Positions 377-34,306 are shown, counted from the first letter of the stretch. The stretch: 64,000 nucleotides of DNA from Oligoflexia bacterium (GCA_015231955.1 JADGAN010000010.1:1-64000), one strand, 5' to 3'. A program made the numbers and translations. Notes: a model not told the origin generated them from the letters alone.

Positions 377-1672
377 GTGGATGGTTGTTTTATGGGTGTA
401 ATGATATTAATTGTACTATTTGTTTTCTTTTATCTCCTGATCATTTTTGAGCACCCGCTCAAGATAAACAAGGGGGCCGTTGCTATCTTTGCCGGCGCAG
501 TCCTTTGGATACTCCTACCATTCGTTACAACACTTACTGGGGAGTTTATTCATGAAAAGCTATTCCATCACCTCGTCGAAATTGCATCCATCATTTTTTT
601 CCTTAAAGGTGCAATGTCCATTGTCGAGATTATTGACTCATGCCATGGGATCAATCTAATAACGGACAGTATAACGACTAGAACTTTTGTAAACTTGCTG
701 TGGATTATCGCTGTCATCTCCTTCTTTCTATCTGCAGTTCTTGATAACCTAACAACTTCCATAGTCATGATGTCTTTTGTAAGAAAGATAAAACTAAAAT
801 CGACAGAGGTGAAAATTCTTGCAAGCATTATCATCATTGCCGCTAATGCTGGAGGGGCCTGGTCTCCAATAGGTGATGTCACCACCACTATGCTTTGGAT
901 TACCGGGAGGATTAGCAGTATACATACTATAGAGATGCTTATTCTTCCGAGCATTGTCTCCTTACTTGCACCGCTGATAGTTTTATCATTTCGTTACCGC
1001 CATAAGGTAATTGAAATGGATAATGCTTTCTTGTCCAATGCCACTTATTCCATAAGTAGGAGATCGAGTGCGATAGTTTTATTTACGGGTGTGGTATCTC
1101 TAATCTTAGTACCCATTATCAAGCAGATCACAGGCCTTCCCCCTTTCGTTGGGATCTTTTTTGGGTTTGGACTAACCTGGATTGTTTCGGAAATTTTCGT
1201 TGGAAGAAAACAGGATAACACTGTTCACATTCCAGATGCACTTCAAAAGGTGGATCTTTCAAATATTTACTTTTTTATAGGGATTTTACTATCTGTTGCG
1301 GCCTTAGAGAGTGCAGGAATACTAAAGCAGTGGGCAACCACTCTTTCTCACTACTTAACTAATATGAATGTTTTTGTTTCCATCCTAGGCATCTTATCTG
1401 CAGTAATTGACAATGTACCTCTAGTAGCTGGAACAATTAGTATGTATGGAACTGCAACTTATCCCATCGACCACTCACTATGGACACTGTTGGCATTCGC
1501 TGCAGGGACTGGTGGCAGCCTTCTCATCATAGGATCTGCAGCTGGTGTGGCCATTATGAATACCGCGAAAATAGATTTCTTCTGGTATTTAAAGTATGTT
1601 ACGCCCCTAGCGCTCTTAGGATATTTGCTAGGGATTGCATTCTACTTGCTACAAGTGCAGTTACTCTCTTGA
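377..1672 (+). CDS. nhaD: NhaD-type Na+/H+ antiporter
   Basis: An integral membrane protein of 431 residues with many hydrophobic segments, predicted to exchange Na+ for H+ across the inner membrane. The stretch LDNLTTSIVMM followed by IIAANAGGAWSPIGDVTT near residues 115-175 is the signature of the NhaD/ArsB-like ion transporter superfamily. A second half-repeat has IDNVPLVAG near residue 346. The length matches the family. The first possible start is GTG at 377. An ATG at 392, preceded by GGATGG, is an equally reasonable start and would remove five residues. The gene stands alone and converges on the chemotaxis block. Its stop codon overlaps the first base of the repeat at 1671. Confidence 0.9.
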   Translation: MDGCFMGVMILIVLFVFFYLLIIFEHPLKINKGAVAIFAGAVLWILLPFVTTLTGEFIHEKLFHHLVEIASIIFFLKGAMSIVEIIDSCHGINLITDSITTRTFVNLLWIIAVISFFLSAVLDNLTTSIVMMSFVRKIKLKSTEVKILASIIIIAANAGGAWSPIGDVTTTMLWITGRISSIHTIEMLILPSIVSLLAPLIVLSFRYRHKVIEMDNAFLSNATYSISRRSSAIVLFTGVVSLILVPIIKQITGLPPFVGIFFGFGLTWIVSEIFVGRKQDNTVHIPDALQKVDLSNIYFFIGILLSVAALESAGILKQWATTLSHYLTNMNVFVSILGILSAVIDNVPLVAGTISMYGTATYPIDHSLWTLLAFAAGTGGSLLIIGSAAGVAIMNTAKIDFFWYLKYVTPLALLGYLLGIAFYLLQVQLLS

Positions 1673-1717
1673 TTGCTGCTTTAGTTATAAGCAGATCTTT
1701 CCTAGATAAGATTTTAT
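1671..1717. repeat. Left copy of the direct repeat bracketing the chemotaxis block
   Basis: Matches 16012-16054: 33 of 35 bases are identical, then a 4-base insertion (ATAA), then eight more identical bases. Read on the minus strand, this copy encodes LGKICL followed by a stop, against LGKISL and stop at the end of the trehalose-6-phosphate synthase gene. It is therefore a detached copy of that gene's 3' end. It also contains a CTGCTT/AAGCAG hairpin with a 7-nt loop. Confidence 0.85.
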
Positions 1718-1724
1718 CCAGTTG

Positions 1725-3281
1725 TTATTTCCAGCACGATTCGAGAAGATTTTTGTGAATTTCTGCAAGTGGAACAATTTTGTTGGCAGCACCCATTTCA
1801 ATGGCAACTTTGGGCATGCCAAACACGACGGAGGATGCTTCGTCTTGAGCAAAGGTTTTTGCACCCATATTTTTAAGCTGAAGTAGACCTTCGGCCCCAT
1901 CGTTTCCCATACCCGTCATGATTACAGCAATAACTTTTCTGCGCTTGATTTTTGAGAGAGAGAGAAAGAGGTAATCGACGGATGGGCGAAAGCGATTTAC
2001 AGGCGGTTCACTTCTTACCGTTAAACGAAGTGTGGTGCCTTCTTCTTTTACTCCCATCTGAAAGCCGCCAGGTGCCACGTAGGCGACACCATTTTCGACA
2101 AGCTCGCCATCACGGGCCTCTTTGACGGTAAAGGGGCAAAGTTCATTTAAGCGATTGGCCCAGCTGGCAGAGAAAACCGGTGGAATGTGTTGAACAATGA
2201 GAAGGGGTGGAATAATTTTAGGCAAGCGGATCAAGACTTCAGTGACTGCCTCAACACCACCGGTTGATGCTCCAATGGCCAGCAGCTTTGAGCTGATAAG
2301 ATTTAGAGTTAAGTCAGGAGTAGAGAGAGCATTTGTGTCGATTTGCATTCTTTTTGGGGGAGGGCCACCTCCTGCAGGAGAAAATTTTTTTCGCGCTATT
2401 AGAGATGCAGCTGCAGCATCAATCGTGCTGATAAGTTTTTCTCCTAGATCTGTACTACTGCTATCGTTGCAGATGCAATCAAAGGCCCCAAACTCCAATG
2501 CCTCAACCATAGTTTTAGAATCAACATAACCTTGGCGAGAAAAGATAATGACCGAGACATCTTTGGTAAGTAGCTCTTTAAGAGAGAAACTTCCCTCTTT
2601 GCGATAAAGTTGAATATCAAGAAAGATGATTAGCTGAGGATTTGATTTTGCTTGTATCACTACTTCGGAAATGGAATGCACCGTGGGCAGGATGGCGAAG
2701 TTACGACCATGAGTGTTTTCTTTGATTATTTGATCAAGACCACTATAACTTTCAACAATCGCCAACGTGATGTTTTGATTAGTAGGAAGCTTTGATGTAT
2801 CTGGAGTGGATGTTTTTTGAATGAGTTTAAATTCGACATCACCAGTATTGCTATAGAGGACAATATTGCGTCCTAGTTTTCCTCCGACGGACTTTCCTGT
2901 TACAGGAATATCAAATTGCTTAAGGAGCTTAAAGGCGGTAGAGATGTTTTTTTCTGCAAAATTCATCATGTTTTTATTATGATCGAGATCATTTAAAACT
3001 TCACCGCCACCGAGGACCTTTGCAATAAGATCATTTTTGTTAGAGCCGGAACGTTTAAATTCACGAATAAGATTTGGAATGGCAAGATTGCCATAGTTGT
3101 TATCGTTACTAGTGCTCATTCCCAATGGCCCTCGTTCAGGGAGAGCATAATGACAAAGCCCTCCCCAGTGATTTTTTTTATCATAGAGACAAACGGCCAC
3201 ACAAGAACCAATGATAGTGCGAATGCATGTAGGTTCTTTAGCGAAGTGGATCTCACCGGGTTTTACGAATTCACTTTTCAT
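1725..3281 (-). CDS. CheD-receiver-CheB fusion: receptor deamidase plus methylesterase
   Basis: A single 518-residue protein with three modules. Residues about 1-155 are CheD, the receptor glutamine deamidase, with the catalytic C27 in IIGSC and H44. Residues about 172-295 have a receiver-like pattern: D222 sits where the phospho-acceptor should be, but the N-terminal acidic pair is replaced by VES and the conserved Lys near the end is absent. Residues about 330-515 are the CheB methylesterase with a complete triad: S339 in GASTGG, H365 in QHIPP and D461 in MGNDGA. It is the last gene of the operon, 4 nt after cheR. The deamidase and esterase would act on the same receptor methylation sites. 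The receiver is probably not phosphorylated normally (inference). Confidence 0.9.
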   Translation of the reverse strand: MKSEFVKPGEIHFAKEPTCIRTIIGSCVAVCLYDKKNHWGGLCHYALPERGPLGMSTSNDNNYGNLAIPNLIREFKRSGSNKNDLIAKVLGGGEVLNDLDHNKNMMNFAEKNISTAFKLLKQFDIPVTGKSVGGKLGRNIVLYSNTGDVEFKLIQKTSTPDTSKLPTNQNITLAIVESYSGLDQIIKENTHGRNFAILPTVHSISEVVIQAKSNPQLIIFLDIQLYRKEGSFSLKELLTKDVSVIIFSRQGYVDSKTMVEALEFGAFDCICNDSSSTDLGEKLISTIDAAAASLIARKKFSPAGGGPPPKRMQIDTNALSTPDLTLNLISSKLLAIGASTGGVEAVTEVLIRLPKIIPPLLIVQHIPPVFSASWANRLNELCPFTVKEARDGELVENGVAYVAPGGFQMGVKEEGTTLRLTVRSEPPVNRFRPSVDYLFLSLSKIKRRKVIAVIMTGMGNDGAEGLLQLKNMGAKTFAQDEASSVVFGMPKVAIEMGAANKIVPLAEIHKNLLESCWK

Positions 3282-3285
3282 AAGC

Positions 3286-4143
3286 TTAAAATTTTCTAAA
3301 TACTGCTGAACGAATCATTTTTAATTGGTCATCTACACCATGCAGATTTTCAGAATGGCCAATAAACAAAAGCCCATCTTGTCTGAGATGGGACAATAGA
3401 TTTCCAATCACTTTAGTGATACCTTCTCTATCAAAATAGATTAAAACATTTCTTACAAAAATAATGTCAAATTGTGTTGGAAATCTCTCTTCTCCCATTA
3501 AGTTATATTGTCTAAATTTAATTTTGCTCTTTAATTCCTCTCTTATTTTATAGTGACCGGAACAGCGACCAGTTCCCCTAAGCAAGGATTTGGCCGCGAT
3601 ATTAAGCGGGACTGTATGTTCGATAAGTTCACGGGCATAAACACCAGTTTTAGCAAGATCTAAAACTTTTGTATTGATGTCAGTACCCAGAATACGAAAA
3701 TCAATTTTAGGATAGGCACTTATTATGTCGTTAAATTCCATCGCCAGAGTGTAGACCTCTTCTCCTGTAGAGCAAGCAGCTGACCAAATCATGAGTGTCT
3801 TGCTGTTATGCTGTTTGCTTAGTAGCGTATTTAATTTAGGTATGTATTCGTGGCGCAAATAATCGAAGTGCTGTTTTTCTCGATAAAAATCGGTTTTGTT
3901 GGTAGTGAGAGCATTGATATAAAATTCCATCTCTGTAGGATTTTGCTCCAGGTATTGGATGTATTGACGATATCCATCGAGTTCTAGTTGAATCAGGCGG
4001 CGGTAAATTCGTGATTGCATCAAGGTTTTTTTTGTTTCGTTAAGTTTTAGGCCCGCAACTCTATAGATAAGATCCTTGAGATAATTGAAATCTCGATCGG
4101 AAAGTTCAAATTGAAAATGAAGATCGACTGCTTCGCTACTCAC
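3286..4143 (-). CDS. cheR: CheR chemoreceptor methyltransferase
   Basis: Transfers methyl groups from S-adenosylmethionine to receptor glutamates. At 285 residues it has the usual CheR length. The N-terminal helical domain (about 1-80) is followed by the SAM-binding motif WSAACSTGEEVY and the family motif FDIIFVRNVLIYFD. It sits between cheA and the CheD-CheB fusion, 20 nt and 4 nt away, so methylation and demethylation enzymes are co-transcribed. Two receptors of this block end in aromatic pentapeptide-like tails that could recruit it. Confidence 0.95.
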   Translation of the reverse strand: MSSEAVDLHFQFELSDRDFNYLKDLIYRVAGLKLNETKKTLMQSRIYRRLIQLELDGYRQYIQYLEQNPTEMEFYINALTTNKTDFYREKQHFDYLRHEYIPKLNTLLSKQHNSKTLMIWSAACSTGEEVYTLAMEFNDIISAYPKIDFRILGTDINTKVLDLAKTGVYARELIEHTVPLNIAAKSLLRGTGRCSGHYKIREELKSKIKFRQYNLMGEERFPTQFDIIFVRNVLIYFDREGITKVIGNLLSHLRQDGLLFIGHSENLHGVDDQLKMIRSAVFRKF

Positions 4144-4163
4144 GAAATCCTCCTATGAGCATA

Positions 4164-5906
4164 CTAGGTGCTTACTCCTTGATAAAGGCGGATAATGGAG
4201 GCAACATCTAAAATCAAAGCCGCCTTACCATCTGCTAAAATAGTACCACCGCTAAATCCAGGTCTATGCTTTAATTCACTACCTAAGTTTTTAAATACAA
4301 TTTTTTGCTGGCCAAGAATATCATGAATGCGTAGGGCATATTCGCGACCATGGTGTTCAATAATGATGGCAAGCACATTGCCTTCTGTCTTGTCACAGAC
4401 TCCCAAGAGCAGCGATTTAATATCAATAAGAGGCATCACTCGGCCTTTGATATCGATAATTTTTTCTTGTTCATCAACACGATGGCAGGTGTCGCTGGCA
4501 ATTTGTACAATTTCTTTGACATCAGCATTAGGGATTATGAATTTACCATCATCAATGAGTACAATCATTCCGTTGAAAATTCCAAGCGAGAGAGGAAGTT
4601 TAATGATGTAGTTTGTGCCTTTGGCCTCTTCGGTTTTTATGTCAATACTTCCTCTGAATTTATCCACAAAATTTTTAACCACATTCATACCAACACCGCG
4701 ACCGGAAAGTTCTGATACTTGTTCTTTTGTAGAAAAATCACTTTTAAAAATAAGTTGATAAATTTCTTTGTCATTAAGCGATTGTTCTGGAGTAATGATC
4801 TTTTTTTCTATTGCGCGCTTTAAAATTTTTTCTTTATTAAGTCCATTGCCATCATCTACGATTTCAATATAAAGAAATCCTCCGTGAGTGCTGGCACTGA
4901 GTTTAATTGTTCCTTCTGGTTTTTTTCCCATCTCCTTCCTGATAGCGGCAGGCTCAATCCCATGATCGATGGCATTTCTTATTAAGTGTACTAGTGGAGA
5001 ATCGAGTTCATCGAGAATTGTCTTATCTACTTCAAGCGCTTCACCTTGAGTTATGAAATTAACCTCTTTATTTAATTGCTTAGCGGTATCGCGCACAATT
5101 CGCTTCATTTTGCTGAAGATAGTATTTAAATTAAACATCCGCAAAGAGAGTGCAGTCTGTTGCAGGTGGTAGGTTATCTTACTTAATTGTACAATGGTTT
5201 TTTCAATCATCTCTCCATTGGCACTAAGATTCATCCTCCCTTGATCTAATATGGTGTTGAGGATTGCTTGTTCTCCAAGAGCATCAAGAAGGCCATCCAC
5301 TTTGCTAAGAGGCAAGCGAATGTACTCGTCCTGCTTTTTATCGTGTTTTTCCTGTTTTTCTGATCTTTCTGGTTTTTCCTCAATGATCTCTTCATGATTC
5401 TCTTCTTTAAATGAACCATCTTCATTGACAAAATCACTGATATCAATTTGCTTGGCACATTGATTTTCTAGAGAAGCTGGCACGACCTCTGGTGCCGATT
5501 TTTCTCCACTACCTTGCAAGATCACTTGGATTTCACTGGTGATATCTGAATTATCGGGAAAGATGATTTGTCCATCAAGAGAATCTTGACATAGAGAGAA
5601 CATAATCTTGAGCCGATCATTGGATGCCAACAAAATATCCACCACCTCTCCGTTTACAGCAATCAACTCTTGAATAATTTTAGAGAGGAGATTTTCAATC
5701 TGATGAGTAAATTTTGATAAAGCCTCCAACCCTACTGCAGCAGAGGAGCCTTTGATGTTGTGATAGACACGAAAAATGTGCTGAATATGTTCTTTATTTG
5801 AAGGATCAGATTCTAGCTCTAAAAAAGTGCTTTCCACCTCGACAATGAGCTCTGCTGCTTCAATAAGAAAACATTTTCGCATTTCAACTAAGACAGTATC
5901 TTCCAT
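4164..5906 (-). CDS. cheA: CheA chemotaxis histidine kinase
   Basis: The signal-transducing kinase of the array, 580 residues. The N-terminal Hpt domain carries the phosphorylation site H49 in YHNIKGSS. A charged linker (about 150-200) replaces an obvious CheY-binding P2 domain. It is followed by the dimerisation domain, an ATPase domain with the N box in LVHLIRNAIDHG and the glycine box VDDGNGLN, and a C-terminal CheW-like regulatory domain. It lies 22 nt downstream of cheW. No cheY lies beside it, so the phosphoryl acceptor is not obvious from the operon. Confidence 0.95.
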   Translation of the reverse strand: MEDTVLVEMRKCFLIEAAELIVEVESTFLELESDPSNKEHIQHIFRVYHNIKGSSAAVGLEALSKFTHQIENLLSKIIQELIAVNGEVVDILLASNDRLKIMFSLCQDSLDGQIIFPDNSDITSEIQVILQGSGEKSAPEVVPASLENQCAKQIDISDFVNEDGSFKEENHEEIIEEKPERSEKQEKHDKKQDEYIRLPLSKVDGLLDALGEQAILNTILDQGRMNLSANGEMIEKTIVQLSKITYHLQQTALSLRMFNLNTIFSKMKRIVRDTAKQLNKEVNFITQGEALEVDKTILDELDSPLVHLIRNAIDHGIEPAAIRKEMGKKPEGTIKLSASTHGGFLYIEIVDDGNGLNKEKILKRAIEKKIITPEQSLNDKEIYQLIFKSDFSTKEQVSELSGRGVGMNVVKNFVDKFRGSIDIKTEEAKGTNYIIKLPLSLGIFNGMIVLIDDGKFIIPNADVKEIVQIASDTCHRVDEQEKIIDIKGRVMPLIDIKSLLLGVCDKTEGNVLAIIIEHHGREYALRIHDILGQQKIVFKNLGSELKHRPGFSGGTILADGKAALILDVASIIRLYQGVST

Positions 5907-5928
5907 AACCTATCCTTAGAAGTGAAAA

Positions 5929-6456
5929 TTAACTTGCGCTTGTTGGTTGTTCTTTAAGGAGTTTTAATTCATCGATATTCAAAGTTTGGCCAATATTAAG
6001 CAGTAGTGTAAGGCCTTTATCTTTTTTAGCAACTCCAGTAATAAACTCTTTGGCAATTTTACTTTGGATATCTAAATTATTTTCAATTTGTGCTGTATCA
6101 TAATTTGCAACCTCAATCACATCGTCTACGACAACACCTAAAGTGAATCCATCAATTTCAGTAATGATGATACAAGTTTTCTTAGGTAAGTATTGGCCCG
6201 AGGGCAGCGAGAGTTTTAAGCGTAAGTCAATAACGGAAATAATTTTACCGCGAAGATTGATGATACCTTTAAAAAACGGTGGAACATGGGGAACAGAGAC
6301 AATACTTACAAGTCCGATCACCTCTTTAACAGAAAAAAGTGGTATTCCATATTTTTCTTCAGCAAGATCAAATATGAGATACTTGTTTTTTTTGGCACCA
6401 TTTTTATTGAGTTCTTCACGTCCGAGGGCCACTTGCATTTGTAAATCATTTTTCAT
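5929..6456 (-). CDS. cheW: CheW coupling protein (first copy)
   Basis: Links chemoreceptors to CheA. A CheW domain covers about residues 25-165, with KYLIFDLAEEKYGIPL at the start and FKGIINLRGKIISVIDLR in the core. I place the start at the ATG at 6456 because AAGGA lies 7 nt upstream. The frame also has an in-frame ATG at 6471, five codons earlier. It follows the receptor gene with a short gap and precedes cheA. The second CheW at 15214 is clearly related in sequence, with the same INLRGKIISVID core. Confidence 0.93.
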   Translation of the reverse strand: MKNDLQMQVALGREELNKNGAKKNKYLIFDLAEEKYGIPLFSVKEVIGLVSIVSVPHVPPFFKGIINLRGKIISVIDLRLKLSLPSGQYLPKKTCIIITEIDGFTLGVVVDDVIEVANYDTAQIENNLDIQSKIAKEFITGVAKKDKGLTLLLNIGQTLNIDELKLLKEQPTSAS

Positions 6457-6475
6457 ATCGTTTCCTTCCATTAAG

Positions 6476-8230
6476 TTAGAGTGATTCCCAATCGCCAGAG
6501 GCCTTTCCCTGTTTCGGCGCTCCTTCCTCTTCTTTTGCTACCACCACAAGGCGTTTAAGAGGGATAACATTATTATGCTCGTGTTTATTGAGCTTGAGTT
6601 TTGCTGCCACTTGGGTATTAAGGTGAACTTGTTTAGTAATAGAAGCAGCTTGCCGTTCGATACTATCGCCTTTACTAATAAGCGAGCTTAAATCCACTAC
6701 TACTTGCTTTAACGTATCAACTTGAGAGTTTAGCTCTTCCGCAGCACTAGCAGTCTCTTCACTGGTTGAGGCATTCTCTTGAATTGCCTTATCAAGCTGT
6801 TCTACTGCAGAATTGATTTGCCGTATTCCCGATGCTTGCTCATTAGAGGCGGTTAAAACTTGCGATGCTGCTTTTTGAACGATCTGTGCTTTCTTACCTA
6901 TTTCTTGTAACACCCGAGAGGTCTCTTCAACTAGCTTATATCCTTCATCCACTTTACTCTTATTTTCATTGGAAACAGCTTCTGCTTGGCGAATGCTATC
7001 CTTTACAATTTGAGCAATCTCCTGGGCCGCTTTGCCGCTCATCTGTGCTAAATTTCCTACCTCTTGTGCAACTACTGCAAAGCCACGTCCATGCTCACCT
7101 GCACGCTCGGCTTCCACTGAGGCATTAAAGGAGAGAAGTTTGGTTTGAAAAACAATCTCATCCATAATCTCAGTTTTTTCACCAATGTTATCGATTACTT
7201 TTACCAATTGTTCAATCTTTTCATTGCTTTTTAAGATCTCATGCATGGCCCGTTGAAGCTGTTCCATTGCCGCTTTGGCTTCTTCAGAAATTCCGACAAC
7301 CTTTTCAGAAAGCTCGAGGGCACTTTTGGCGTTTTCTAAGTTATTATTGATTTGACCATTCATCTCTTCGAGTGCTGCCGAGGTCTCTTCAATAGAGGAG
7401 GCCTGTTCACTCGAAGCTTGCGACACTTGCTGACTACCAGAGGAAACCTCTTGAGAGGCAGAGCCAACTTGAGTTGAACAATCGGAAAGAGAGGTGATTG
7501 AGGTTGCGAGTGCTTGAACAATTGAACGAATGATCGAGATGCTGATAAAGATGGAGGTGATTATAGCGCTAATACTAAAAATAAAGATTAACCAATAGAC
7601 AGAATTGCTAGTGGTATTGGAGCTGTCTTCAGCAATTTTTGTGTTTTTACCTTGAATTTTTAGTAACTCTTCTAGACTGGTTTCAGCTATAGCAAAATAT
7701 TTCATCCCTTCCATAGAAAGATTAAAGGCCTTATCGTCAAGTTTATCAATTTCTGATTTTAATTTTAGAGCTTCTACTTCTGAAAGTAGCTTCATTTGTG
7801 CTAATTTTTCATCCTTTTGTTTAATGAGAGTAACTACTTTTTCATGATGTTCTTTCCAGGTGTTCCATTTACCAATGAATTGTTTCCATTCGATCGCTTC
7901 ATCAGCGCTTTGTTCCAGCGGTTCATACGCTTTCCATGCTTGATCGATATGCTTTGAAATTTCTTCTCTGCGATCATAAATTGTTTTGCGGATGTTGGCA
8001 TCTAATCGTCGCAGCAACAAGGAGCGCTCGACTTCTTTCAGGGAAATTTGTCCTTTATCAATAACGCTAAGATAGCGCTCACTAGGCATCAGTACCTTGG
8101 TGATATGATAAGTGATATTGGTCACTTTTTGAATAGCAAAAAAAGCAATCAAAGAGGTGATAACAAGAAAAGCAATTAAGGCAGCAGATAGAATAATGAT
8201 TTTTTTATCAATTTTCATTTTTGTCGACAT
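6476..8230 (-). CDS. Methyl-accepting chemotaxis protein with a four-helix-bundle sensor
   Basis: A 584-residue chemoreceptor. A transmembrane helix near residues 10-32 is followed by a helical periplasmic region (about 40-200), probably a 4HB-type ligand domain. A second membrane helix lies near 210-235, then a long cytoplasmic signalling rod. The hairpin tip reads [19 protein letters not shown]. The protein ends in DWESL, which resembles the C-terminal pentapeptide that tethers CheR in other receptors. The start ATG has AGGAG 7 nt upstream. It is the first gene of the receptor-cheW-cheA-cheR-cheD/B operon and lies behind a sigma28-like promoter. Confidence 0.93.
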
Positions 8231-8270
8231 TATTATCTCCTGTAAACTTAATTATATTACACCAGATTTG

Positions 8271-8297
8271 ATTTCGGAATATTAGATAAAAACTTTA
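8271..8297 (-). promoter_or_regulatory. Sigma28-type promoter for the chemotaxis operon
   Basis: On the minus strand, TAAAGTTT (8297-8290) is followed by 11 nt and TCCGAAAT (8278-8271). The enterobacterial FliA consensus is TAAAGTTT-N11-GCCGATAA, so the match is eight of eight and five of eight with exact spacing. The receptor ATG follows about 40 nt downstream. The motif was found by eye. Confidence 0.5.
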
Positions 8298-8323
8298 AAG
8301 ATTTTCACACTAATTTTCGATGA
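8296..8323 (+). promoter_or_regulatory. Possible divergent sigma28-like promoter for the response regulator
   Basis: TAAAGATT (8296-8303), then 12 nt, then TTCGATGA (8316-8323), 22 nt before the regulator ATG. It matches seven of eight and five of eight consensus positions with spacing one longer than ideal. The central CTTTAAAG is palindromic and is shared with the opposite promoter. Confidence 0.35.
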
Positions 8324-8345
8324 ATAGAAAGAAGAGAACCAAAAA

Positions 8346-8948
8346 ATGGAGAATTTTATTATGATGACCAACTCGCATGTTCCGATCGTGAAAATTGATC
8401 AAGATAATTTGCATGATAGTGCAATTCTTATTGTAGATGATGAAAAAGACATTAGAAGCATTGTGAAAAAAATTTTACGTCCGCATATTGCACGTTTTTT
8501 TGAAGCAGGAAATGGATTGGATGCTATTGATATTTTGAGTGAGGAGAAGATTGATCTTGCCATTATCGATCTGAAAATGCCCAGGATGGGAGGTATAGAA
8601 TTGTTGAAACAGATCAATAGCAATTATTCCAATGTGGTGCCAATTATTTTAACCGCCTTTGGGGATAAAGAATCTGCTATTTGTGCAATTCAAAACAACG
8701 CCTATGATTTCTTGGAAAAGCCTATCAATTCTGGAATTTTAGTTCATCGAATAAATAAAGCAATCGAGCTTGCTAAAAATCGTTCTCTGCTTAGAGCAGC
8801 GGCCAAAGAGTATGCTATGCAATTTTTAGAGAAAAATATTGCTAGCAAATTTGATTCTTTACCGATACAAGAACAAAATAAAATTCTTTCTGCTGCTTTG
8901 GGGTTGATTAAATTAAAGCAAAATCCTGCTCGAAAAAAAACAGGTTAG
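8346..8948 (+). CDS. Single-domain response regulator with a helical C-terminal tail
   Basis: Residues about 25-145 form a complete receiver: acidic pair in LIVDDE, phospho-acceptor D75 in IIDLKMP, and the conserved Lys in FLEKPI. The last 55 residues are predicted helical with no DNA-binding motif I recognise. It is the only stand-alone receiver near the chemotaxis genes and is a candidate CheY-like output or phosphate sink for CheA. Alternatively it may pair with the hybrid kinase whose gene ends two bases away on the other strand. The ATG at 8346 has GAAGAGA upstream; ATGs at 8361 and 8364 are alternatives. Confidence 0.9.
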   Translation: MENFIMMTNSHVPIVKIDQDNLHDSAILIVDDEKDIRSIVKKILRPHIARFFEAGNGLDAIDILSEEKIDLAIIDLKMPRMGGIELLKQINSNYSNVVPIILTAFGDKESAICAIQNNAYDFLEKPINSGILVHRINKAIELAKNRSLLRAAAKEYAMQFLEKNIASKFDSLPIQEQNKILSAALGLIKLKQNPARKKTG

Positions 8949-8949
8949 A

Positions 8950-10122
8950 TTATTTTTTTATTTCTTTGATGGACATAAGTAATTGTTTTGAATCAAAAGG
9001 TTTGACAAGAATATTGTCAGCATATTTTTTGATTGTATCACGATCAATTTTTGAAAAACCGGAGAGCATTCCACCTGTGATGGCAATTATGGCCATACTG
9101 CTTTTACAAGATAAAGATTGAACATTTCGAAGAAGTTCGCCTCCATTACCATTTTCCATCATGAGATCAGTTATAAGATAATCCACTTGATTGTTTTGTA
9201 AAAACTCAAAGGCACTATGGCCAGAGCTGGTGCTATAAACAACCATCCCTTGGACGGTTAAATTGTTTACGAGCATTGATCGAATTTCCTCTTCATCATC
9301 AACAATTAAAACAGCTTTCTCCTTAAGGTTAACAGGGCCCTGCTCTTCGCAATAAAGTTGTTGGCCAGAGGCAAGGAGGGAAAACATAAAACTAGAACCT
9401 TGTCCTATTTGACTACTAACAGAGAGTTCTGTGTTCATCTCTTGCAAAAGCTTTTGTGCTACAGTTAAACCTATTCCCAAATTTCCAGTACCTTCCTTAC
9501 TGGTATAAAAAGGATTGAAAATTTTCTCAAGGTTGCATTTTTCAATTCCAATACCACTGTCGCATATCTCAATCATTAGGTTGCCTGGTTTATTGGAGTC
9601 ATCATAGCTAAGAATAGAAATAGAGGAGTTGTTTTTGTTACCATCGATAATTGCTTCAATAGCATTTTGGATTAAAATGAGCAGAACGCTGCCCAATTTT
9701 CCCTTAGAACTAGTGACTACTTGTGATTTAGAGAAATATTTTTTTTCGATGACAATTGATTTTTTATTGCAGATGTCTTCAGTTGTACTAGTAATCTCTT
9801 CAATAAAGTTTGGTAGATTGATCTCTTCGATTATGGAATCATCAATAGTAGAAAGTGAGCGCATTCCCTGTATGATGTTTCCAATTCGAGAAAGCGATTG
9901 TTCTTGTTTTAAGAGCATGTCAGAGAGAGCGGGCGTAAGCACATTGCGTTTTTGGAGTTCTTCGACCATAATCTCTGAAAAGCCTTTGGCAATTGCTAGC
10001 GGATTGTTAATTTCATGAACAAGGTATTGCACCATTTTTCCAACTGTGGCCAATTTGGAAATTTCATAAAGATTGTTGTCCCTTTCTTTGTCATGATTAC
10101 GTTCTTCTTTTTCTTCTTTCAT
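8950..10122 (-). CDS. Hybrid histidine kinase with C-terminal receiver
   Basis: A soluble kinase of about 390 residues with no membrane segment. The H box is LVHEINNPL with H36. ATPase motifs follow (ILIQNAIEAI and CDSGIGI, then GIGLTVAQKL). A C-terminal receiver carries LIVDDEEE, an acceptor Asp in LITDLMM and the terminal KPF lysine. The ATG at 10122 has GGAGAGG 4 nt upstream and is much better supported than the TTG at 10143. It lies convergent with the response regulator gene, the stops being almost adjacent. The lack of a sensor domain suggests that it reads a cytoplasmic signal or partner protein. Confidence 0.9.
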   Translation of the reverse strand: MKEEKEERNHDKERDNNLYEISKLATVGKMVQYLVHEINNPLAIAKGFSEIMVEELQKRNVLTPALSDMLLKQEQSLSRIGNIIQGMRSLSTIDDSIIEEINLPNFIEEITSTTEDICNKKSIVIEKKYFSKSQVVTSSKGKLGSVLLILIQNAIEAIIDGNKNNSSISILSYDDSNKPGNLMIEICDSGIGIEKCNLEKIFNPFYTSKEGTGNLGIGLTVAQKLLQEMNTELSVSSQIGQGSSFMFSLLASGQQLYCEEQGPVNLKEKAVLIVDDEEEIRSMLVNNLTVQGMVVYSTSSGHSAFEFLQNNQVDYLITDLMMENGNGGELLRNVQSLSCKSSMAIIAITGGMLSGFSKIDRDTIKKYADNILVKPFDSKQLLMSIKEIKK

Positions 10123-10250
10123 TTTGCCTCTCCGATATTGCAAGAGCTATCATCTGAACATATCGGATAACAAAAATTAATCTAAAACATAAAACATGAC
10201 GATGGATGAAAAGGGTATAGGTTTTTTTGTGGAGATTGTTGTAAGCAGAA

Positions 10251-10961
10251 CTACTTCATGATGGTTACTTTACCATCATCCAAATCGTATTTACCCTTGA
10301 CGATTTTTAGTTTACCCTCTTTTACAAGGTGTTTTAATATACTAGAATTTTCTGTAAGCGAATCGGCCACCATATTGATATTGTTATCTACTGCCATCTC
10401 GACAATTTCGCCTTTCTCTTTGCCTTTGCTGTCACTCTTTGCCTTGCTAGCAGCGGGTGCAATCTTCTTTACAATTTGTCCGATATTGCCAGCAGCATGT
10501 CCATCAGCATCGACAGTGGCCTTCACGGCCCCACACTTCTCATGGCCTAAAACCATTAGTAGTGGTGATCCCAAATGTTCTGCTGCGTATTCAAGACTCC
10601 CAAGAATAATCGGATCGGGAATATTCCCGGCAACTCTAACCACAAAAATTTCTCCAATCGATTTATCAAAGATGATCTCTGGTGGCAGCCTGGAATCGGA
10701 ACAAGAAAGAATAATCGCATAGGGGGCCTGTCCATTTGCAAGCTCTTTTCTGATTGCCACGCTTGTATCTTTGCAAAGACTGGGTGTCATTGCTACATAA
10801 CGGTTATTTCCGGCCATAAGCTTATCTAATGCCTCTTCAGCGGTGATCTTGCTTGCAAGAGGAGCGTGATCGGCTTTGCCTGAAGTGGAAGTGGAGGAGG
10901 AGGCATAAGCGCTACTACTAAAGCAAGCAAGGAATAGAGAAGTTAAAATTATTTTTTTCAC
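10251..10961 (-). CDS. Periplasmic beta-class carbonic anhydrase
   Basis: Interconverts CO2 and bicarbonate. An N-terminal signal peptide (about 1-20, ending AYA) sends it to the periplasm. The zinc and catalytic residues of beta carbonic anhydrases are all visible: C87, D89 and R91 in CSDSR, then H140 and C143 in GHEKCGA. At 236 residues it has the normal length. The start is GTG with AGGAG 8 nt upstream. It lies 23 nt after a chemoreceptor gene on the same strand, so it is probably co-transcribed with cheW and two receptors. Confidence 0.93.
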   Translation of the reverse strand: MKKIILTSLFLACFSSSAYASSSTSTSGKADHAPLASKITAEEALDKLMAGNNRYVAMTPSLCKDTSVAIRKELANGQAPYAIILSCSDSRLPPEIIFDKSIGEIFVVRVAGNIPDPIILGSLEYAAEHLGSPLLMVLGHEKCGAVKATVDADGHAAGNIGQIVKKIAPAASKAKSDSKGKEKGEIVEMAVDNNINMVADSLTENSSILKHLVKEGKLKIVKGKYDLDDGKVTIMK

Positions 10962-10984
10962 TTTTATTCTCCTGTTGTTTATTC

Positions 10985-13111
10985 TTAAATTTTATTCCAT
11001 TCGTCATTAGCATTGCTAGAGATGCTTCCACTTCGACCGCTCTCACTTATAAACTCGCCACTATTGGCAACAAATTTCTCTTTCTCCCCTCTATGAATTC
11101 TTGGCACATTGGCGATTTGCTTTTTTTCTCTGGCCTTTTTGATGTCATAAATATTATCGGATGATTTATTGATCATCTTATTTCCATGACTATTTCCAGC
11201 TTTTTCCATGGATTGCATGCCTGCACCACCACGAGTATCTACACCATTTACCATCATATATAACTGTTTTACTGCTGAATTTAACATCTCTGTCTGTGCT
11301 CCTAACTCCTCTGAGGTACTGGCCACCTCTTCTGACTGGGCCGCATTCTCTTGAGTGGCCTTCTCTAAGTTTGACATGGCCGTGTTGATCTGCTTAATAC
11401 CTTGTGCTTGCTCCTTAGAAGCATCGAGCACTTGATTGGCCCCCGACTTTACCGAGTTTGCCGATTGTAAAATTTCTTTAAGTGCTTTTGCTGTATCCGT
11501 AACTAGGTTTGCACCATTCTCCACCTTTTTGCGATTGGCGATGGTGATATCTTTTGCGGTTTTTATACTCTCGGTAAGAATATGAGAAATTTCTTGTGCC
11601 GCTTGTCCACTCATCTGAGCAAGATTTCCTACCTCTTGTGCAACAACTGCAAAACCACGACCATGTTCACCTGCGCGCTCGGCCTCTACAGAAGCGTTGA
11701 ACGAGAGTAACTTCGTTTGAAAGACAATTTCATCCATTACTTTGGTTTTTTCACCAATGGCGGACATCACTTTTACTAACTCCTCAACCTGATCATTGCT
11801 CTCTAAAATTTCCTTCATCGAATCTTGTAACTGATCCATCTTCTCATTTCCGATTTCTGAAATACCGGAAACTTTTTGCGAAAGTTCTGCTGCTGAGGTA
11901 GCGTTGCTAACGTTGTTACTAACCATTCCTCCCATCTCTTCGAGAGAGGCGGTCGTCTCCTCAATTGAACTTGCTTGCTCTGAAGAGCTACTGGCAAGTT
12001 GCTGAGCAGAGCTGGAAAGCTCTTGAGAAGCGTTGTTTACTTGAGTGGATGCCTCTGCTAGCGAATTACAAATACGCATAATTAAATTTACAATACTACG
12101 AGTGACTACGAAAGCAACGCCAAGACCAAGAGCAACCGCAAAAGCAAGTCCAAAGACCATCATGGTTGAGGCAACACTAAGCGAAGTTGCTGCACTTAAA
12201 GCAATCTTTTTAGTCTCTTCTGCACCAGCAATTGAAGTCTTCTCAGCAGCGGACAACACTGCCTCTGCAGTTTTTCCACGAAGGGTGGAAATCTCATTTA
12301 ACTTTTGTCGAAGCGCGATCTCTTTTACCGTTCCTTCTTTGTACTCTTTGGCGTCCTTTAATACTGCATGCAGCTCTTCTTTATCTTTTGGGTCATGAAA
12401 AACTTTATCAAGGGATGCTCCAAATTCAGTAATTTTTTCAAAATGGGGTAAAATTGACTCAACAATAGCAACATCTCTCTCTCCAAGGGATTTCATTCGT
12501 GCCAAGCGAATTTCATGGCCAGTATTATTCATTTTTGTAATCATGGTTAACTTTTCTACCCTTTCAAGCAACTCGCCTCGTCCTGAATTTTTATTGATAT
12601 CTTCCTCCAATTTTTTATCTTGAGTATTAAAAAGAATTTCTACTGACTTCATATATTGACCGCCAGCATGATTTAACTCTTTTGCAATTTCATGAAGTTC
12701 TCCCTCAATTTTCACCGTCTCCTCTAAAAGTTTTTTATACTCTTCCACATTTGCCTTGGCGTCAGGTAGGTTTTGCTTTAACTTCACAAGATGTGGAGAC
12801 TTTTCTGCCAACTCCTCAATCTGTTTCATTCCCTCTTCAACATTTGCTAACGCTTTTTTCCCAGGAATCAAAAAATGATTTTCATCTCCGGTAAATTGAT
12901 AACCGCGAATATTATACATAGTATTGAGAGAGTTGCGCTCAATCTCATTAGCAAGCAACACCTCTGGAACATACTCTTGTGCAAGCATATTCGATTCTGT
13001 TCGCACATCCATCATGGAGATGACGGCCACTCCTCCGAGGATGGACGATATTAAAAGCAAAGCACCAAAGCCAAGCCAAATTTTTGTTCCAAGTTTCATC
13101 TGATCAAACAT
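10985..13111 (-). CDS. Methyl-accepting chemotaxis protein with a large helical sensor
   Basis: A 708-residue chemoreceptor. The first membrane helix is near residues 12-32. The periplasmic region of roughly 260 residues is wholly helical and starts with the usual NTMYNIRGY motif. Its size and pattern suggest a helical bimodular (HBM) sensor like those that bind organic acids in pseudomonads (inference). A second membrane helix lies near 305-335, followed by a signalling rod with tip [19 protein letters not shown]. The C-terminus ends DEWNKI, possibly a CheR-docking tail after a flexible linker. AGGAGGAG precedes the ATG. It sits between another receptor gene and the carbonic anhydrase gene. 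Confidence 0.93.
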
Positions 13112-13143
13112 TTTTTCTCCTCCTTGAATCTAATGAATCTAAA

Positions 13144-15204
13144 TCAGCACTTCCTGATTTTTTGTACTTTTTTCTCACTTCTCTTGAATGAGATTACTTT
13201 GTTGTTATTGTTGTTATTACTGAGGCCATAATTCTCAAGCTTTGTAGTAGCAAAGTCAGACGGCATTACCAAACTTCCCATTCCGCGAGAAGAGAAGGTG
13301 TTGGTGACACTACTTAAGGCCCGTTCTCCATGAACGATGCGAACGAGGCCACTAATAATATCTTTAAGCGTCTCTGCCTGTGCGCTTAGTTCCTCGGAGG
13401 AGCTGGAGGCCTCTTCAGCAGTTGCGGCATTCTCCTGAGTAGTGCGATCGAGCTGTACCACGGCCCCGTTGATCTGCTTAATTCCGGAAGCCTGTTCTTT
13501 GGACGCACTAAGAATTTGCTTGGCATTCTCTGCAACCACTCCCGCCTGTTCCGTGATCTCTCCTAATATTTGTGCAGTTTTAGAGACTAGAGCATTTCCC
13601 TGCTCCACTTTTTGTTTATTCTCAGTGGTAATTTCCTCAGCGTTTCTAATACTATCTTTCACAATTTTAGTGATCTCCATGGCCGCTTGCCCACTCATCT
13701 TTGCAAGATTTCCTATCTCTTGGGCCACTACGGCAAAACCGCGTCCTTGCTCACCTGCTCGTTCTGCTTCAACAGAGGCGTTAAATGAAAGCAGCTTGGT
13801 TTGAAAAACAATCTCATCGATCACTTTGGTTTTCTCTCCAATCTCTGAAATCACCTTTACCAAGGCTTGAATCTTCTCATTGCTCTTTAAAATATCTTTC
13901 ATTGAGGCAATCAACTCACGCATGGAGTGGTTGCCCTCTTCTGAAACTCTTCTTACATTCACCGCAAGCGCAGTCGACTTCTCTGCATTCTTGACATTAT
14001 TCTCCACCATGGAGGAAATCTCTTCTAGTGAGGAAGAGGTCTCTTCAATATTGGCAGCTTGCTGGCATGAAGACTCAGATAGATGTTGGCTCGCACTCGA
14101 CACCTCTCCTGCGGCTTGACCCACTTGCGTAGAGGCCCCGCACAGTTGCTCCAATATCAGTCGAATAGGATTTGCAATAAAATTGGAGAGGGTAACACCG
14201 ATGCCAATTCCAAGAGCAATTGCTAGCAGTGCTACTGTGATGATCATCATCACAGCAACTTTAATCATCGCCTCTGCATTTATCTCGCTACTGCTCATAG
14301 AGTCCCATCCGGCCTGCTCTGTTTCGTCTGCAAGTTTGATCGCTTCTTGTGCGCCTTGGTTCATCGCAGGTAAAATTTTTTGCTGCACCAGTGTGTCGTT
14401 TTTGATCCACTCTTCAGCGGCAGCAGCATACTCATTGGTAGCTTTTCGAGCACGTTTGATTTTTTCCAGATCCCCCTCGTTTTTGGTAATCGCTTGTAGT
14501 TCATCGTAATAAGTTGACAACTTTTGCAATTCGATCACCATACTCCGATAGTAGATGCGATCTTTGTGGAGGCGTTCCTCTTTTTCCTTCATGCGAATCA
14601 TAAGTGCGAGCGACTGAATTTTTGAGGCAAGAATATAGCGCTGAACATACTCATCCAAACTACCTTCTTTTTCTCCCTTGATCTTTGCCTTTGCCGCCTC
14701 ATAATCCTCAATTTGTCGAGTAAGATACGTCTCTGCTTCATTAGAGACACTGGCACCTTTATCAATCATCACCTTTACTGCTACCTTATTCTTCTTAAAT
14801 TCACTCACTCCTTTGTCAAAAAGTTCCTCATAATTTTTTGCAATCTCACGCACCTTGTGCGAACGCTTTAGCAGTCCCTGATCATTATAGTGATTGCCAA
14901 TTGCATCCACCTTCTCCAAATACACCAAGAGTGCAGTAAGATCTTTCTTTGCTCGCTCATGCACCTCATCCGTTTCGTGTAAGAGATAATCGCGTTGGTT
15001 AATCATGGAATCATAAGCACGTGCATGCACTCCTACTGCATTTTTTACCGCCGGCACTTTCCATTTCGTGATCAAAAAGAGTTCATTTGATACTTGTTTA
15101 ATAAAAACGTAAGACAAAAGCCCTAAAATCCCCATCAAAAAGACCATACTAAAAAAACCGAGTACAATTTTTGTCTTTAAATTGAGTCTCTTTAATATCA
15201 GCAT
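13144..15204 (-). CDS. Methyl-accepting chemotaxis protein with a large helical sensor (second)
   Basis: A 686-residue receptor with the same architecture as its downstream neighbour: membrane helix near residues 14-35, a helical periplasmic domain of about 270 residues, membrane helix near 305-335 and a long coiled rod with tip [19 protein letters not shown]. The tail differs. A run of six asparagines, encoded by a short trinucleotide-like tract near 13200-13220, leads to a basic KKVQKIRKC end with no pentapeptide. It may therefore depend on its neighbours for methylation, as low-abundance receptors do. It starts 9 nt after the cheW stop. Confidence 0.93.
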   Translation of the reverse strand: MLILKRLNLKTKIVLGFFSMVFLMGILGLLSYVFIKQVSNELFLITKWKVPAVKNAVGVHARAYDSMINQRDYLLHETDEVHERAKKDLTALLVYLEKVDAIGNHYNDQGLLKRSHKVREIAKNYEELFDKGVSEFKKNKVAVKVMIDKGASVSNEAETYLTRQIEDYEAAKAKIKGEKEGSLDEYVQRYILASKIQSLALMIRMKEKEERLHKDRIYYRSMVIELQKLSTYYDELQAITKNEGDLEKIKRARKATNEYAAAAEEWIKNDTLVQQKILPAMNQGAQEAIKLADETEQAGWDSMSSSEINAEAMIKVAVMMIITVALLAIALGIGIGVTLSNFIANPIRLILEQLCGASTQVGQAAGEVSSASQHLSESSCQQAANIEETSSSLEEISSMVENNVKNAEKSTALAVNVRRVSEEGNHSMRELIASMKDILKSNEKIQALVKVISEIGEKTKVIDEIVFQTKLLSFNASVEAERAGEQGRGFAVVAQEIGNLAKMSGQAAMEITKIVKDSIRNAEEITTENKQKVEQGNALVSKTAQILGEITEQAGVVAENAKQILSASKEQASGIKQINGAVVQLDRTTQENAATAEEASSSSEELSAQAETLKDIISGLVRIVHGERALSSVTNTFSSRGMGSLVMPSDFATTKLENYGLSNNNNNNKVISFKRSEKKVQKIRKC

Positions 15205-15213
15205 TAAAAATCC

Positions 15214-15792
15214 CTACAATACGTTCATACGATTCATGCCACTGCTATCGATTTTCTCTCGGAGTTTTTTCAAGACATCAATATCGAGGGCCTTTTCCAA
15301 ATCCACCAAAAGTGTAAGCTTCTTATCTGTCGTTTTGGCCACTCCCACAATACACTGATTTCCCGTTTCACTATCTATATTGATATTGTTTTCAATTTGA
15401 TGAGATTCAAAACCGGCCACTTCAAGGACATCATCCACCACCATTCCTAAGGTGAAATCTTTAACCTCGCTGATAATGATACAAGTTTTTCGTGGATCAT
15501 AAACGGTAATTGGTAGTATGAACTTTGAACGCATATCGATCACGGAGATAATTTTTCCCCGTAAATTAATCAATCCTTTGAAGAATTCTGGCACATGGGG
15601 AATTGCGGTGATCGAGGTAAGTGCAATCACCTCTTTTACGAGGAGTAACGGAATTCCAAAACGCTCTTCATGCAACTTAAATATAAGATGCTTATTCTTC
15701 TTAATTGCCTCTCTTGTTTCAAAACTCTCACGTTTTTGCTCATGAAAATCGTTCTGACCATTGCTACTATTTGCTGAAGCATTATTCTCCAT
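15214..15792 (-). CDS. cheW: CheW coupling protein (second copy)
   Basis: A 192-residue CheW-domain protein with the core FKGLINLRGKIISVIDMR, preceded by about 38 polar residues not found in minimal CheW. AGGAGGAG lies just upstream of the ATG at 15792. It heads a cheW-receptor-receptor-carbonic anhydrase transcription unit. Having a CheW with its own receptors, apart from the one next to cheA, suggests receptor-specific coupling or simple duplication. Confidence 0.93.
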   Translation of the reverse strand: MENNASANSSNGQNDFHEQKRESFETREAIKKNKHLIFKLHEERFGIPLLLVKEVIALTSITAIPHVPEFFKGLINLRGKIISVIDMRSKFILPITVYDPRKTCIIISEVKDFTLGMVVDDVLEVAGFESHQIENNINIDSETGNQCIVGVAKTTDKKLTLLVDLEKALDIDVLKKLREKIDSSGMNRMNVL

Positions 15793-15853
15793 CGTCTCCT
15801 CCTAGAACTATTTCTACTAAAGAATTTCACCTGTAATACACATTTATTATGTC

Positions 15854-16010
15854 TTAATCTTCGCTCTCATTCATCCAGATCATTTTTGCCCGTTCTTCAT
15901 CTTTTTGTTGGCTTTCCATTAAAAACAAGTGCAGGTGCTTCTTGCGACACAATGCGTATTTTGCCGTGAAATGCTTATTCTTTAAGCATTCCGGCCACTG
16001 CTTAAATCCG
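15854..16010 (-). pseudogene. Orphan C-terminal reading frame next to the direct repeat
   Basis: On the minus strand a frame of about 50 codons is open up to a stop at 15854, with protein-like composition: FKQWPECLKNKHF, an ALCRKKHLHLFL segment and a charged tail ending MNESED. There is no ATG before a late internal one, and the frame closes upstream at a stop inside the repeat. It looks like the 3' remainder of a gene cut off where the repeat begins. I do not recognise the family. A short real gene with a non-ATG start cannot be excluded. Confidence 0.4.
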
Positions 16011-16011
16011 A

Positions 16012-16054
16012 GATTGCTGCTTTAGTTATAAGGAGATCTTTCCGAGGATTTTAT
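16012..16054. repeat. Right copy of the direct repeat (3' end of the trehalose-6-P synthase gene)
   Basis: GATTGCTGCTTTAGTTATAA and the following bases repeat those at 1671-1717 in the same orientation. This copy is the functional one: it encodes the last residues and stop of the synthase. Confidence 0.85.
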
Positions 16055-18245
16055 TACGCCTTCTTAATCTGGCCGCATCTATCAACATCCTTCCGGCCCA
16101 ACGATAAACATTGAACTCCTGGACGTAGCTACGCATGCTTTGCATGCGCTCTTTCTGCTCTGTCACAGGCATGGAGAGAACACTATTCATTGCTTGCGCG
16201 CATTGATCAATATCGTATGGGTTAACGATCATGGCCTCTGGTAATTCTTGAGCAGCTCCTGTAAATTGGCTTAGAATAAGCATTCCCAGTTCATCATCTC
16301 TTGCTGCTATGTACTCTTTAGCAACCAGATTCATTCCGTCGTGTAAGCTACTAACGAAGCAAAAATTGCTGGCCCTATAGTATTCAAAGACTATCGACGG
16401 TTCACGATGTTCAGCAATGAGAATAATTGGATTGTAGTTTTCATAAGAAAATTTGTGGTTAATCCTTTTTGCCAAGGCATCTACCTCATGGGCGAACCTT
16501 TGGTAGTTATCAATACTGCTTCTGGTGGGGGCAGCTATTTGTACAAAGACAAACTTACCAATCCATGTTGGGTAGGCCTCCAGCAAGCGCTCTATCGAGA
16601 GAAATTTCTCCAACATGCCCTTGGTATAATCCATCCGATCCACACCAATGCCGACGAAAGCATTCTGATCGATGTTATGCCTCTGTTTTATCTCCTGCTT
16701 GCAGAGCTCAATCGTCTTGGCATTTTTACTCCACTTTACTGGATACTCAATAGAGATAGGGTAATTATTGACTGCAGATAATTTTCCTCTATAAGAGATT
16801 GTTGAATTTGCTCGATCTATTCTACACTCCAGGTAACGATCAACAGTATCGATGAAGTTGTTACAATGAAATTGGGTATGAAATCCAAGGATAGTACTCC
16901 CAAGTAATCCTCCCAATATCTCTTCTCTCCAAGGACAGATTCCGAATGATTCTGGATTAGGCCAAGGGATGTGCCAGAAGGTGATGATGGTTGCCTCCGG
17001 CAACATCTCACTGATGAGTTTAGGGAGTAGAGCAAAGTGATAGTCTTGCAATAGAATTACTGGATTTTTAGTTTTGGCCTCTTGAACAATGACGTCAGCA
17101 AACTTCTGATTAACCTTTTGGTATGCCTGCCAATCGGAGCTTCGAAATGTTGGTCGAACGTGAGCTATATGGCATAGAGGCCATAGTCCTTCATTGGCAA
17201 AACCATAGTAGTAGCCATCCTCCTCTTCCTTGGTGAGCCACACCCTTCGAAGTGTATAGGAGGGATCATCAGGTGGAACTCGAATATGATCGTTCTTATC
17301 AACGACCTCCTTATCCGCAGGGCCACTTCCATGAGCGATCCAGGTGCCCGAGCATGCACGCATAATCGGTTCGAGAGCAGTAACTACTCCGCTGGCAGGA
17401 AACTGAACTTCAATATGATTCTCTCGTTTAATGTGAATATAGGGTTCTCGATTAGAGACAATCATCACCTCTTCACCGGAAAGTTCCTTTTGCAAAATCC
17501 CTTTGAGTGCCTTGGGAGTCCAGCTGATCCTTACCTCGTCTCTAAACCTACGCTCTTTTTCAACCTCTCTCACGAAGTTGCGTAAGTCTTTGAGGATGGG
17601 ATCGAATTCAGGTGTAGTTGGTTTAGCACTTTTATCAAAGATAAATTCTCCCTGAACGAGTGATCGCATTCCTTTCATAAGACCAAGAAAGCTTATCCTT
17701 ACAGTAATAATCGTAAGCAGAGAAATAACCATCCCAAGAGCAGCGAAGAAGTAGATAATATATTTTTTTGTTTGAGCACTTCTTCTTTCAATAAAACTTA
17801 GGTCATGCAATAGAATGAGTTCACCCAATTTGGAATTGTCTTCCGGATTATTTAGTAAGAATGATGCTATGTAAATGAGACCACTAGGAAGTTCTTTGAT
17901 GGCATTGTAGGATATACTATCAGTAGGGCACTTAATGTCGTCAGGAAAAGTATTGGTCTTAGTAAAAAGAGTATTTTTTTTATCACATAATGCAACAGCA
18001 TAAAGTCTTTCATCTTGAATTGCCTTGCTAAACAACCGTTCAATTTTTATTTTCCCCTTGGGTTCACCAGAGGTAATAACTTCAATAAGTGGTTCTTGCA
18101 TTGTTGAAAAGACCAACTTATTTCTAATCTCGATATCTTTTACAAACCATTTTAACGTGAGTGAATCAACTAAAGGGACAACCGTGTAGGTAATGGCCCC
18201 AATGAGTATGATTAACGGCATGACTAAACGAAGAAATATTTTCAT
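16026..18245 (-). CDS. otsA: Membrane-anchored trehalose-6-phosphate synthase (GT20)
   Basis: Joins a glucosyl donor to glucose-6-phosphate. The GT20 domain runs from about residue 258 to the end, with VSNREPY, the HIPWPNPE motif, GFHTQFHCNNF, GVDRMDYTKG and VSSLHDGMNLVAKEYIAA. Unlike plain OtsA it begins with a membrane helix (about 4-26), about 130 residues that should face the periplasm, and a second helix (about 161-185), resembling a sensor module. ATG at 18245 is chosen because AGGAGGGG lies 6 nt upstream; the longer frame to 18302 lacks this. No trehalose-phosphate phosphatase gene is nearby. The gene's 3' end is the right-hand repeat. Confidence 0.88.
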   Translation of the reverse strand: MKIFLRLVMPLIILIGAITYTVVPLVDSLTLKWFVKDIEIRNKLVFSTMQEPLIEVITSGEPKGKIKIERLFSKAIQDERLYAVALCDKKNTLFTKTNTFPDDIKCPTDSISYNAIKELPSGLIYIASFLLNNPEDNSKLGELILLHDLSFIERRSAQTKKYIIYFFAALGMVISLLTIITVRISFLGLMKGMRSLVQGEFIFDKSAKPTTPEFDPILKDLRNFVREVEKERRFRDEVRISWTPKALKGILQKELSGEEVMIVSNREPYIHIKRENHIEVQFPASGVVTALEPIMRACSGTWIAHGSGPADKEVVDKNDHIRVPPDDPSYTLRRVWLTKEEEDGYYYGFANEGLWPLCHIAHVRPTFRSSDWQAYQKVNQKFADVIVQEAKTKNPVILLQDYHFALLPKLISEMLPEATIITFWHIPWPNPESFGICPWREEILGGLLGSTILGFHTQFHCNNFIDTVDRYLECRIDRANSTISYRGKLSAVNNYPISIEYPVKWSKNAKTIELCKQEIKQRHNIDQNAFVGIGVDRMDYTKGMLEKFLSIERLLEAYPTWIGKFVFVQIAAPTRSSIDNYQRFAHEVDALAKRINHKFSYENYNPIILIAEHREPSIVFEYYRASNFCFVSSLHDGMNLVAKEYIAARDDELGMLILSQFTGAAQELPEAMIVNPYDIDQCAQAMNSVLSMPVTEQKERMQSMRSYVQEFNVYRWAGRMLIDAARLRRRNKILGKISL

Positions 18246-18352
18246 AACAACCCCTCCTGTCGTTAAAAAGCTCTCTTGTATAAGAAGAGGAGGAGAGCTC
18301 ATGGATAAAGAGAATCCAGGCCCAGCTCCCCTTACATACTAAGGACAACTAC

Positions 18353-31969: not shown

Positions 31970-32031
31970 AGGTTTGTGTGCAGAAAAGGCAACAAGAATT
32001 GAATTAATACGCGGATAGGCGAGGAATTATT

Positions 32032-33780: not shown

Positions 33781-33799
33781 TTACAAGGAAAGGGAAAGC

Positions 33800-34300: not shown

Positions 34301-34306
34301 TAATAC

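Follow-up and report, generated by a model that had tools for sequence, protein, structure and literature searches.

A chemosensory gene block between nhaD and a trehalose-6-phosphate synthase gene, bracketed by a duplicated gene end, in an Oligoflexia bacterium

Organization of the locus

The stretch of DNA analysed here (the window) comprises 64,000 nucleotides of an Oligoflexia bacterium (GCA_015231955.1 JADGAN010000010.1:1-64000) and belongs to contig C11 (129 kb). Near its start, a gene for an nhaD-type Na+/H+ antiporter and a gene for a membrane-anchored trehalose-6-phosphate synthase (TPS) converge on a block of chemotaxis (che) genes, and the 3' end of the TPS gene is found on both sides of that block. 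The genus is represented by this single genome, and relatives were compared at the family level (95 genomes including this one); genomes, contigs and loci that must be told apart carry G, C and L numbers, respectively. The features of the region are the following.

72-154, + strand: group II intron domain V/VI, probable intron 3' end (RF00029, 31.9 bits, E 1.3e-4; below the 40-bit gathering score)
377-1672, + strand: nhaD-type Na+/H+ antiporter (ORF; PF03600; likely start ATG 392)
1671-1717, + strand: left repeat copy, apparent relic of the TPS 3' end with post-stop bases, now predicted to fold as two hairpins
1725-3281, - strand: CheD - degenerate receiver - CheB fusion (PF03975, PF01339; receiver domain under the cut-off)
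3286-4143, - strand: cheR (ORF)
4164-5906, - strand: cheA (ORF)
5929-6471, - strand: first cheW (ORF; compared with the che modules of the family)
6476-8230, - strand: methyl-accepting chemotaxis protein (MCP) 1 (PF00015, PF12729)
8346-8948, + strand: response regulator (PF00072)
8950-10143, - strand: histidine kinase with C-terminal receiver (PF00512, PF02518, PF00072)
10251-10961, - strand: beta carbonic anhydrase (PF00484)
10985-13111, - strand: MCP 2 (PF00015)
13144-15204, - strand: MCP 3 (ORF; nucleotide paralogue of MCP 1 and MCP 2)
15214-15792, - strand: second cheW (ORF; paralogue of the cheW at 5929-6471)
15857-16021, - strand: 55-codon open frame with no good start, between the second cheW and TPS; may be filler
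16012-16054, + strand: right repeat copy, the functional TPS 3' end (stop 16026-16028) with 14 post-stop nt
16026-18302, - strand: membrane-anchored TPS (PF00982; likely start ATG 18245), with otsB and GH15 absent here
18353-18736, - strand: small membrane protein orf18353, of no known family
18753-18816, - strand: riboswitch of the nhaA-I (Li+-I) class ahead of orf18353-TPS (RF03057, 39.5 bits; gathering score 37)

The contig starts at the probable intron 3' end, so the DNA to the left of nhaD is hidden and the nhaD side amounts to only 1.7 kb. A second copy of nhaD, 80% identical, is located on contig C50, its own start corresponding to ATG 392 in the alignment. A che cluster of a different type, about 30% identical, lies a few kb upstream of this second copy (L051, L080), an association that may be coincidence. 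Within the block, cheR stands as in relatives, where it is next to or near the cheD-cheB fusion, cheA is 34-45% identical to the cheA of other che modules in the family, and the response regulator has a counterpart that adjoins cheA in G021 and G017. The 55-codon frame has no Pfam match, no second copy in the genome and no relatives among the sequences compared. Homologues of orf18353 occur before TPS in G028, by the TPS/GH15 cluster in G022 and before nhaD in G024. Elsewhere in the window, a second chemosensory cluster (MCP, cheA, cheW and a cheR-cheB fusion) is present at 30242-35797 on the opposite strand, and two short proteins (28175-28572 and 48854-49084) contain internal tandem repeats (GNYLTAVGGGGRITDVIHSDA repeats and WD40-like repeats).

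The duplicated end of the TPS gene

The initial annotation reported that 43 nt of the TPS end recur in direct orientation at 1671-1717, and the alignment is exactly as it described. The two copies are identical in 33 of 35 columns, followed by a 4-nt gap, the only indel, and a further 8 of 8 (41/47 columns, 87.2%). The exact core of 21 nt is the longest exact direct repeat in the pair. The view that such a repeat is too long for chance in 64 kb is also upheld: scored with +1/-2 the pair reaches 31, whereas the highest value among 60 order-2 Markov copies of the window was 20, and an exact repeat of 21 nt was reached in 1 of 150 such copies (mode 16). With lenient +1/-1 scoring the margin is small (33 versus a best of 30 in 40 random copies), and the strength of the repeat thus rests on both its 21-nt core and its position, at the real TPS end on one side and in the gap between two convergent stop codons on the other. 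It is not a dispersed repeat family, since the 5.6-Mb genome contains one further match only, to the coding end of the TPS paralogue on contig C19, and that match leaves out the post-stop bases; the scattering expected of an ordinary repeat is not seen. The 21-nt core was not found in viral contigs, nor the left junction in plasmids.

The left copy lies wholly inside 1671-1724 and fills the 52-bp gap between the convergent nhaD and cheD-cheB genes. It starts with the last two bases of the nhaD TGA (1670-1672) and ends 7 nt short of the cheD-cheB stop. Read on the minus strand it gives ...YLGKICL-stop, in agreement with the earlier reading of LGKICL-stop beside the nhaD stop, and its coding relic is 33 nt only. 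The left copy is the derived one, since the right copy retains the protein end of the paralogue (NKILGKISL) and the frame-breaking insertion sits in the left. The post-stop bases of the left copy match those of the window TPS and not those of the C19 paralogue. The copies differ by two substitutions in 43 sites compared with about 25% nucleotide divergence between the C11 and C19 TPS genes, suggesting that the repeat event is probably younger than the TPS duplication.

The nhaD-TPS neighbourhood in relatives

Strong matches to nhaD are present in 2 of the 95 genomes, this one counted, and weak matches in two more. Given this rarity, an nhaD-TPS neighbourhood common to two genomes is meaningful. 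The membrane-anchored type of TPS is found in G024, G062, G060, G022, G028 and G073. In G024, which belongs to another genus, the 3' part of nhaD on contig C40 converges on genes for an ATP-grasp ligase, GH15, otsB and TPS on the opposite strand; no che genes are present, nor the repeat, nor a short spacer. The rest of the G024 nhaD is on contig C85, and at the break there are inverted ends of 24 bp (GGGTAGTGGAATATTTTTTCTGTC) together with a duplicated TTTACA (at the starts of L052 and L045). An IS probably split both the gene and the contigs, and C40 and C85 would be linked across it.

According to the initial annotation, nhaD and TPS were once convergent neighbours, and relatives were expected in which the two face each other directly with one copy of the repeat. 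The che-free convergence in G024 bears out the first part; direct abutment is not borne out, since otsB, GH15 and the ligase occupy the 4.45 kb between the nhaD and TPS stops. The start of otsB coincides with the TPS stop or lies only a few bases from it in G024, G062, G022, G060, G028 and at the C19 locus. The window locus has neither otsB nor GH15, and new bases follow the TPS stop, while the C19 locus retains both genes. A parallel loss of otsB is seen on contig C61 of G062 (L047 600-810), where a second TPS copy is followed by otsB cut after about 35 codons and then by mscS.

The TPS of C11 and that of C19 are 79-80% identical, versus about 72% between the window TPS and that of G024, which suggests that the TPS duplication probably occurred after the split from the genus of G024; the TPS tree leaves the sisterhood of the C11 and C19 genes unsettled. 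Because nhaD faces TPS without che genes in G024, the convergence of the two genes most likely predates the che block. That the block is the later arrival between them seems likely, in our judgement rather than by computation.

The nhaA-I riboswitches

Both nhaA-I riboswitches of this genome precede TPS loci (18753-18816 in the window, minus strand; 36376-36435 on C19). There are three in G024, before orf18353-nhaD, before the ligase and before a trehalase-TPS-otsB-GH15 run. Across the family, riboswitches of this class (L045, L052, L046, L050) lead TPS operons, nhaD and the ATP-grasp ligase. A link of nhaA-I RNAs to TPS has already been reported, with Li+ or Na+ left open as the ligand; Na+-responsive variants have a C in place of the U found in most RNAs of the class (PMC9646797). 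Control by nhaA-I would explain why nhaD and TPS are neighbours, because both belong to ion and osmotic stress.

Origin of the che block

Other members of the family also have the che core (cheA, cheR and the cheD-cheB fusion, with cheW, MCPs and a response regulator). A search for a donor through the family, order, class and phylum (369 phylum genomes) gave best cheD-cheB matches of 39-42% identity and none closer. Neither G024 nor G062, the nearest relatives by TPS, yielded the full fusion, and the cheD-cheB protein had no match in plasmids at 1e-60.

Direct repeats stand at both ends of the block, and one of them restores the 3' end of the target gene, as in integrative elements. The absence of an integrase from the block, already remarked on in the initial annotation, extends further: none of the 26 tyrosine integrase (PF00589) matches in the genome falls on the 129-kb contig, up to the contig start, and the ORFs of at least 90 aa at 1725-15792 include no integrase, relaxase, transposase, transfer, mobilisation or excision genes. 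Composition does not shift (GC 0.35-0.44 in the block, 0.35-0.42 in the flanks), the ends of the block have no 10-nt word in common in inverted orientation, and no single-copy empty site was seen among the relatives compared (the genus being one genome, and G024, though free of the che block, having 4.45 kb of other genes there and no repeat). The description of the block as an integrative element is not sustained by these results; the block shows no sign of being a working mobile element, and present mobility is not inferred.

Housekeeping xerD often adjoins scpB. A recombinase near nhaD in G024 adjoins scpB in the same way and was dropped as a lead.

Hairpins in the left copy

All three differences between the copies add base pairing to the minus strand of the left one. 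One substitution completes a CTGCTT/AAGCAG stem, and the TTAT insertion together with the other substitution builds a CTGGATAA/TTATCTAG stem. The predicted minus-strand fold has an energy of -14.2 kcal/mol (z -3.4), compared with -4.3 when the right repeat is put in its place, and 12 of 20,000 trials with random changes of this type gave a fold as stable, a statistic that needs some discount as the pattern was spotted post hoc and on one strand only. The plus-strand fold is ordinary (z -0.3). A terminator-like site lies at 1676-1694, just past nhaD, where such sites are barely above shuffles, and no clear U-run follows the stems. Template switching in quasi-palindromes, a mechanism treated in two papers (PMC7202029, PMC8794818), could be the source of the hairpins, as could selection for a terminator, and the left copy may now act as the nhaD/cheB terminator.

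How the repeats may have arisen

We tentatively favour, with slightly less than even confidence, the reading that the repeats are the scar of a Campbell-type insertion, of a familiar kind, of the che operon at the end of the TPS gene, because it accounts for the duplication of a gene end while both genes stay intact. The starting point would be a sodium/osmotic-stress cluster with nhaD converging on the TPS operon. The downstream trehalose genes (otsB-GH15) would have been lost first, as a separate step, and a DNA circle with the che operon and a short match to the TPS 3' end would then have undergone a single recombination at that end, either through short homology or through a recombinase that acted in trans or has since disappeared. 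Two copies of the 43-nt crossover region would have resulted, with TPS still intact, and the left copy, freed of coding constraint, would have drifted into hairpins. Several points argue against a Campbell-type insertion: the boundary of the left repeat is within 2 nt of the nhaD stop, which insertion at TPS does not predict; the loss of otsB-GH15 is needed as a separate step; there is no integrase, relaxase or transposase; no single-copy empty site is seen among the relatives compared; the pieces of the G024 nhaD are on separate contigs; and the best che relatives are distant (39-42% identity).

A circle is dispensed with if a local duplication containing TPS arose and the TPS on the nhaD side was mostly deleted when the che genes joined. 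The genome does hold duplicates of both TPS (C19) and nhaD (C50), and the second TPS operon of G062, which breaks off 35 codons into otsB and runs on into mscS, indicates that truncation recurs in the group. Such a deletion would, however, have had to stop very near the gene end, as the coding relic is 33 nt with the end of cheB 7 nt off, and the left copy has the post-stop bases of the window TPS instead of those of the paralogue. We consider this course of events unlikely, if the nearest competitor.

A similar standing, a little lower, is held by break repair that copied about 47 nt of the TPS end into the nhaD-che junction. The copy almost exactly fills the nhaD-cheB gap with its boundaries at both stop codons, and templated copying explains the ending of the left copy at two stop codons better than Campbell insertion does. 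The later changes in the left copy also resemble quasi-palindrome template switching as outlined in PMC7202029 and PMC8794818. Nonetheless, break repair gives no specific reason to expect a 47-nt copy that comes from 14 kb away and covers only the TPS stop region.

It is quite improbable that the block is a non-autonomous, integrase-dependent che island that uses the 43-nt repeat at the TPS 3' end, with a recombinase acting in trans, to enter and leave; if it were, motility sensing would be horizontally swapped at a sodium-stress locus. Still more doubtful is the recruitment of a terminator or regulatory hairpin between convergent genes, in which the TPS match is a source only and the che block has a separate history: the stable minus-strand fold, its rarity among random equivalents and the site at 1676-1694 fit this, whereas the lack of a clear U-run, the unremarkable plus strand and the only slight excess of such sites over shuffles do not. 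Least probable is a chance match, or an assembly join at the 21-nt word common to both places, for although the contig begins at a group II intron with so short an nhaD side and one random copy in 150 has a 21-nt repeat, a simple misjoin would give identical copies, these differ outside the core, and the match sits precisely at the stop codon of TPS.

Significance

The locus is a clear example of a gene block set at the end of a coding gene with neither neighbour broken and with a che-free genome for comparison. As it stands, it documents the rearrangement of a sodium/trehalose stress cluster and suggests that a duplicated gene end may become hairpins. Should mobility be shown, it would mean that chemosensory operons can move as cassettes.

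Comparison with known systems

Among integrating elements, PAISt at bacA (PMC4057263) and SGI1 (PMC2297512) are known to have direct repeats where they insert, at a coding gene's 3' end. As in these, direct repeats flank the block in the window, one being the intact 3' end of the host gene and the other a relic. Unlike PAISt and SGI1, the block has no integrase, transfer or excision genes, and it carries a chemosensory operon whose type is common in the family. The che modules of G021, G017, G073, G028 and G038 share the CheD-CheB fusion and the core gene set with the block, at only 33-45% protein identity for cheA, cheR and cheD-cheB, and in the stretches read none of them is beside nhaD or TPS; beyond what they contain, the window block has an additional cheW, additional MCPs, the kinase and the carbonic anhydrase. 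The flanks are most like the nhaD/trehalose osmo-adaptation cluster of G024, in which nhaD likewise converges on a riboswitch-led TPS operon and the place of the che block is taken by otsB, GH15 and the ATP-grasp ligase.
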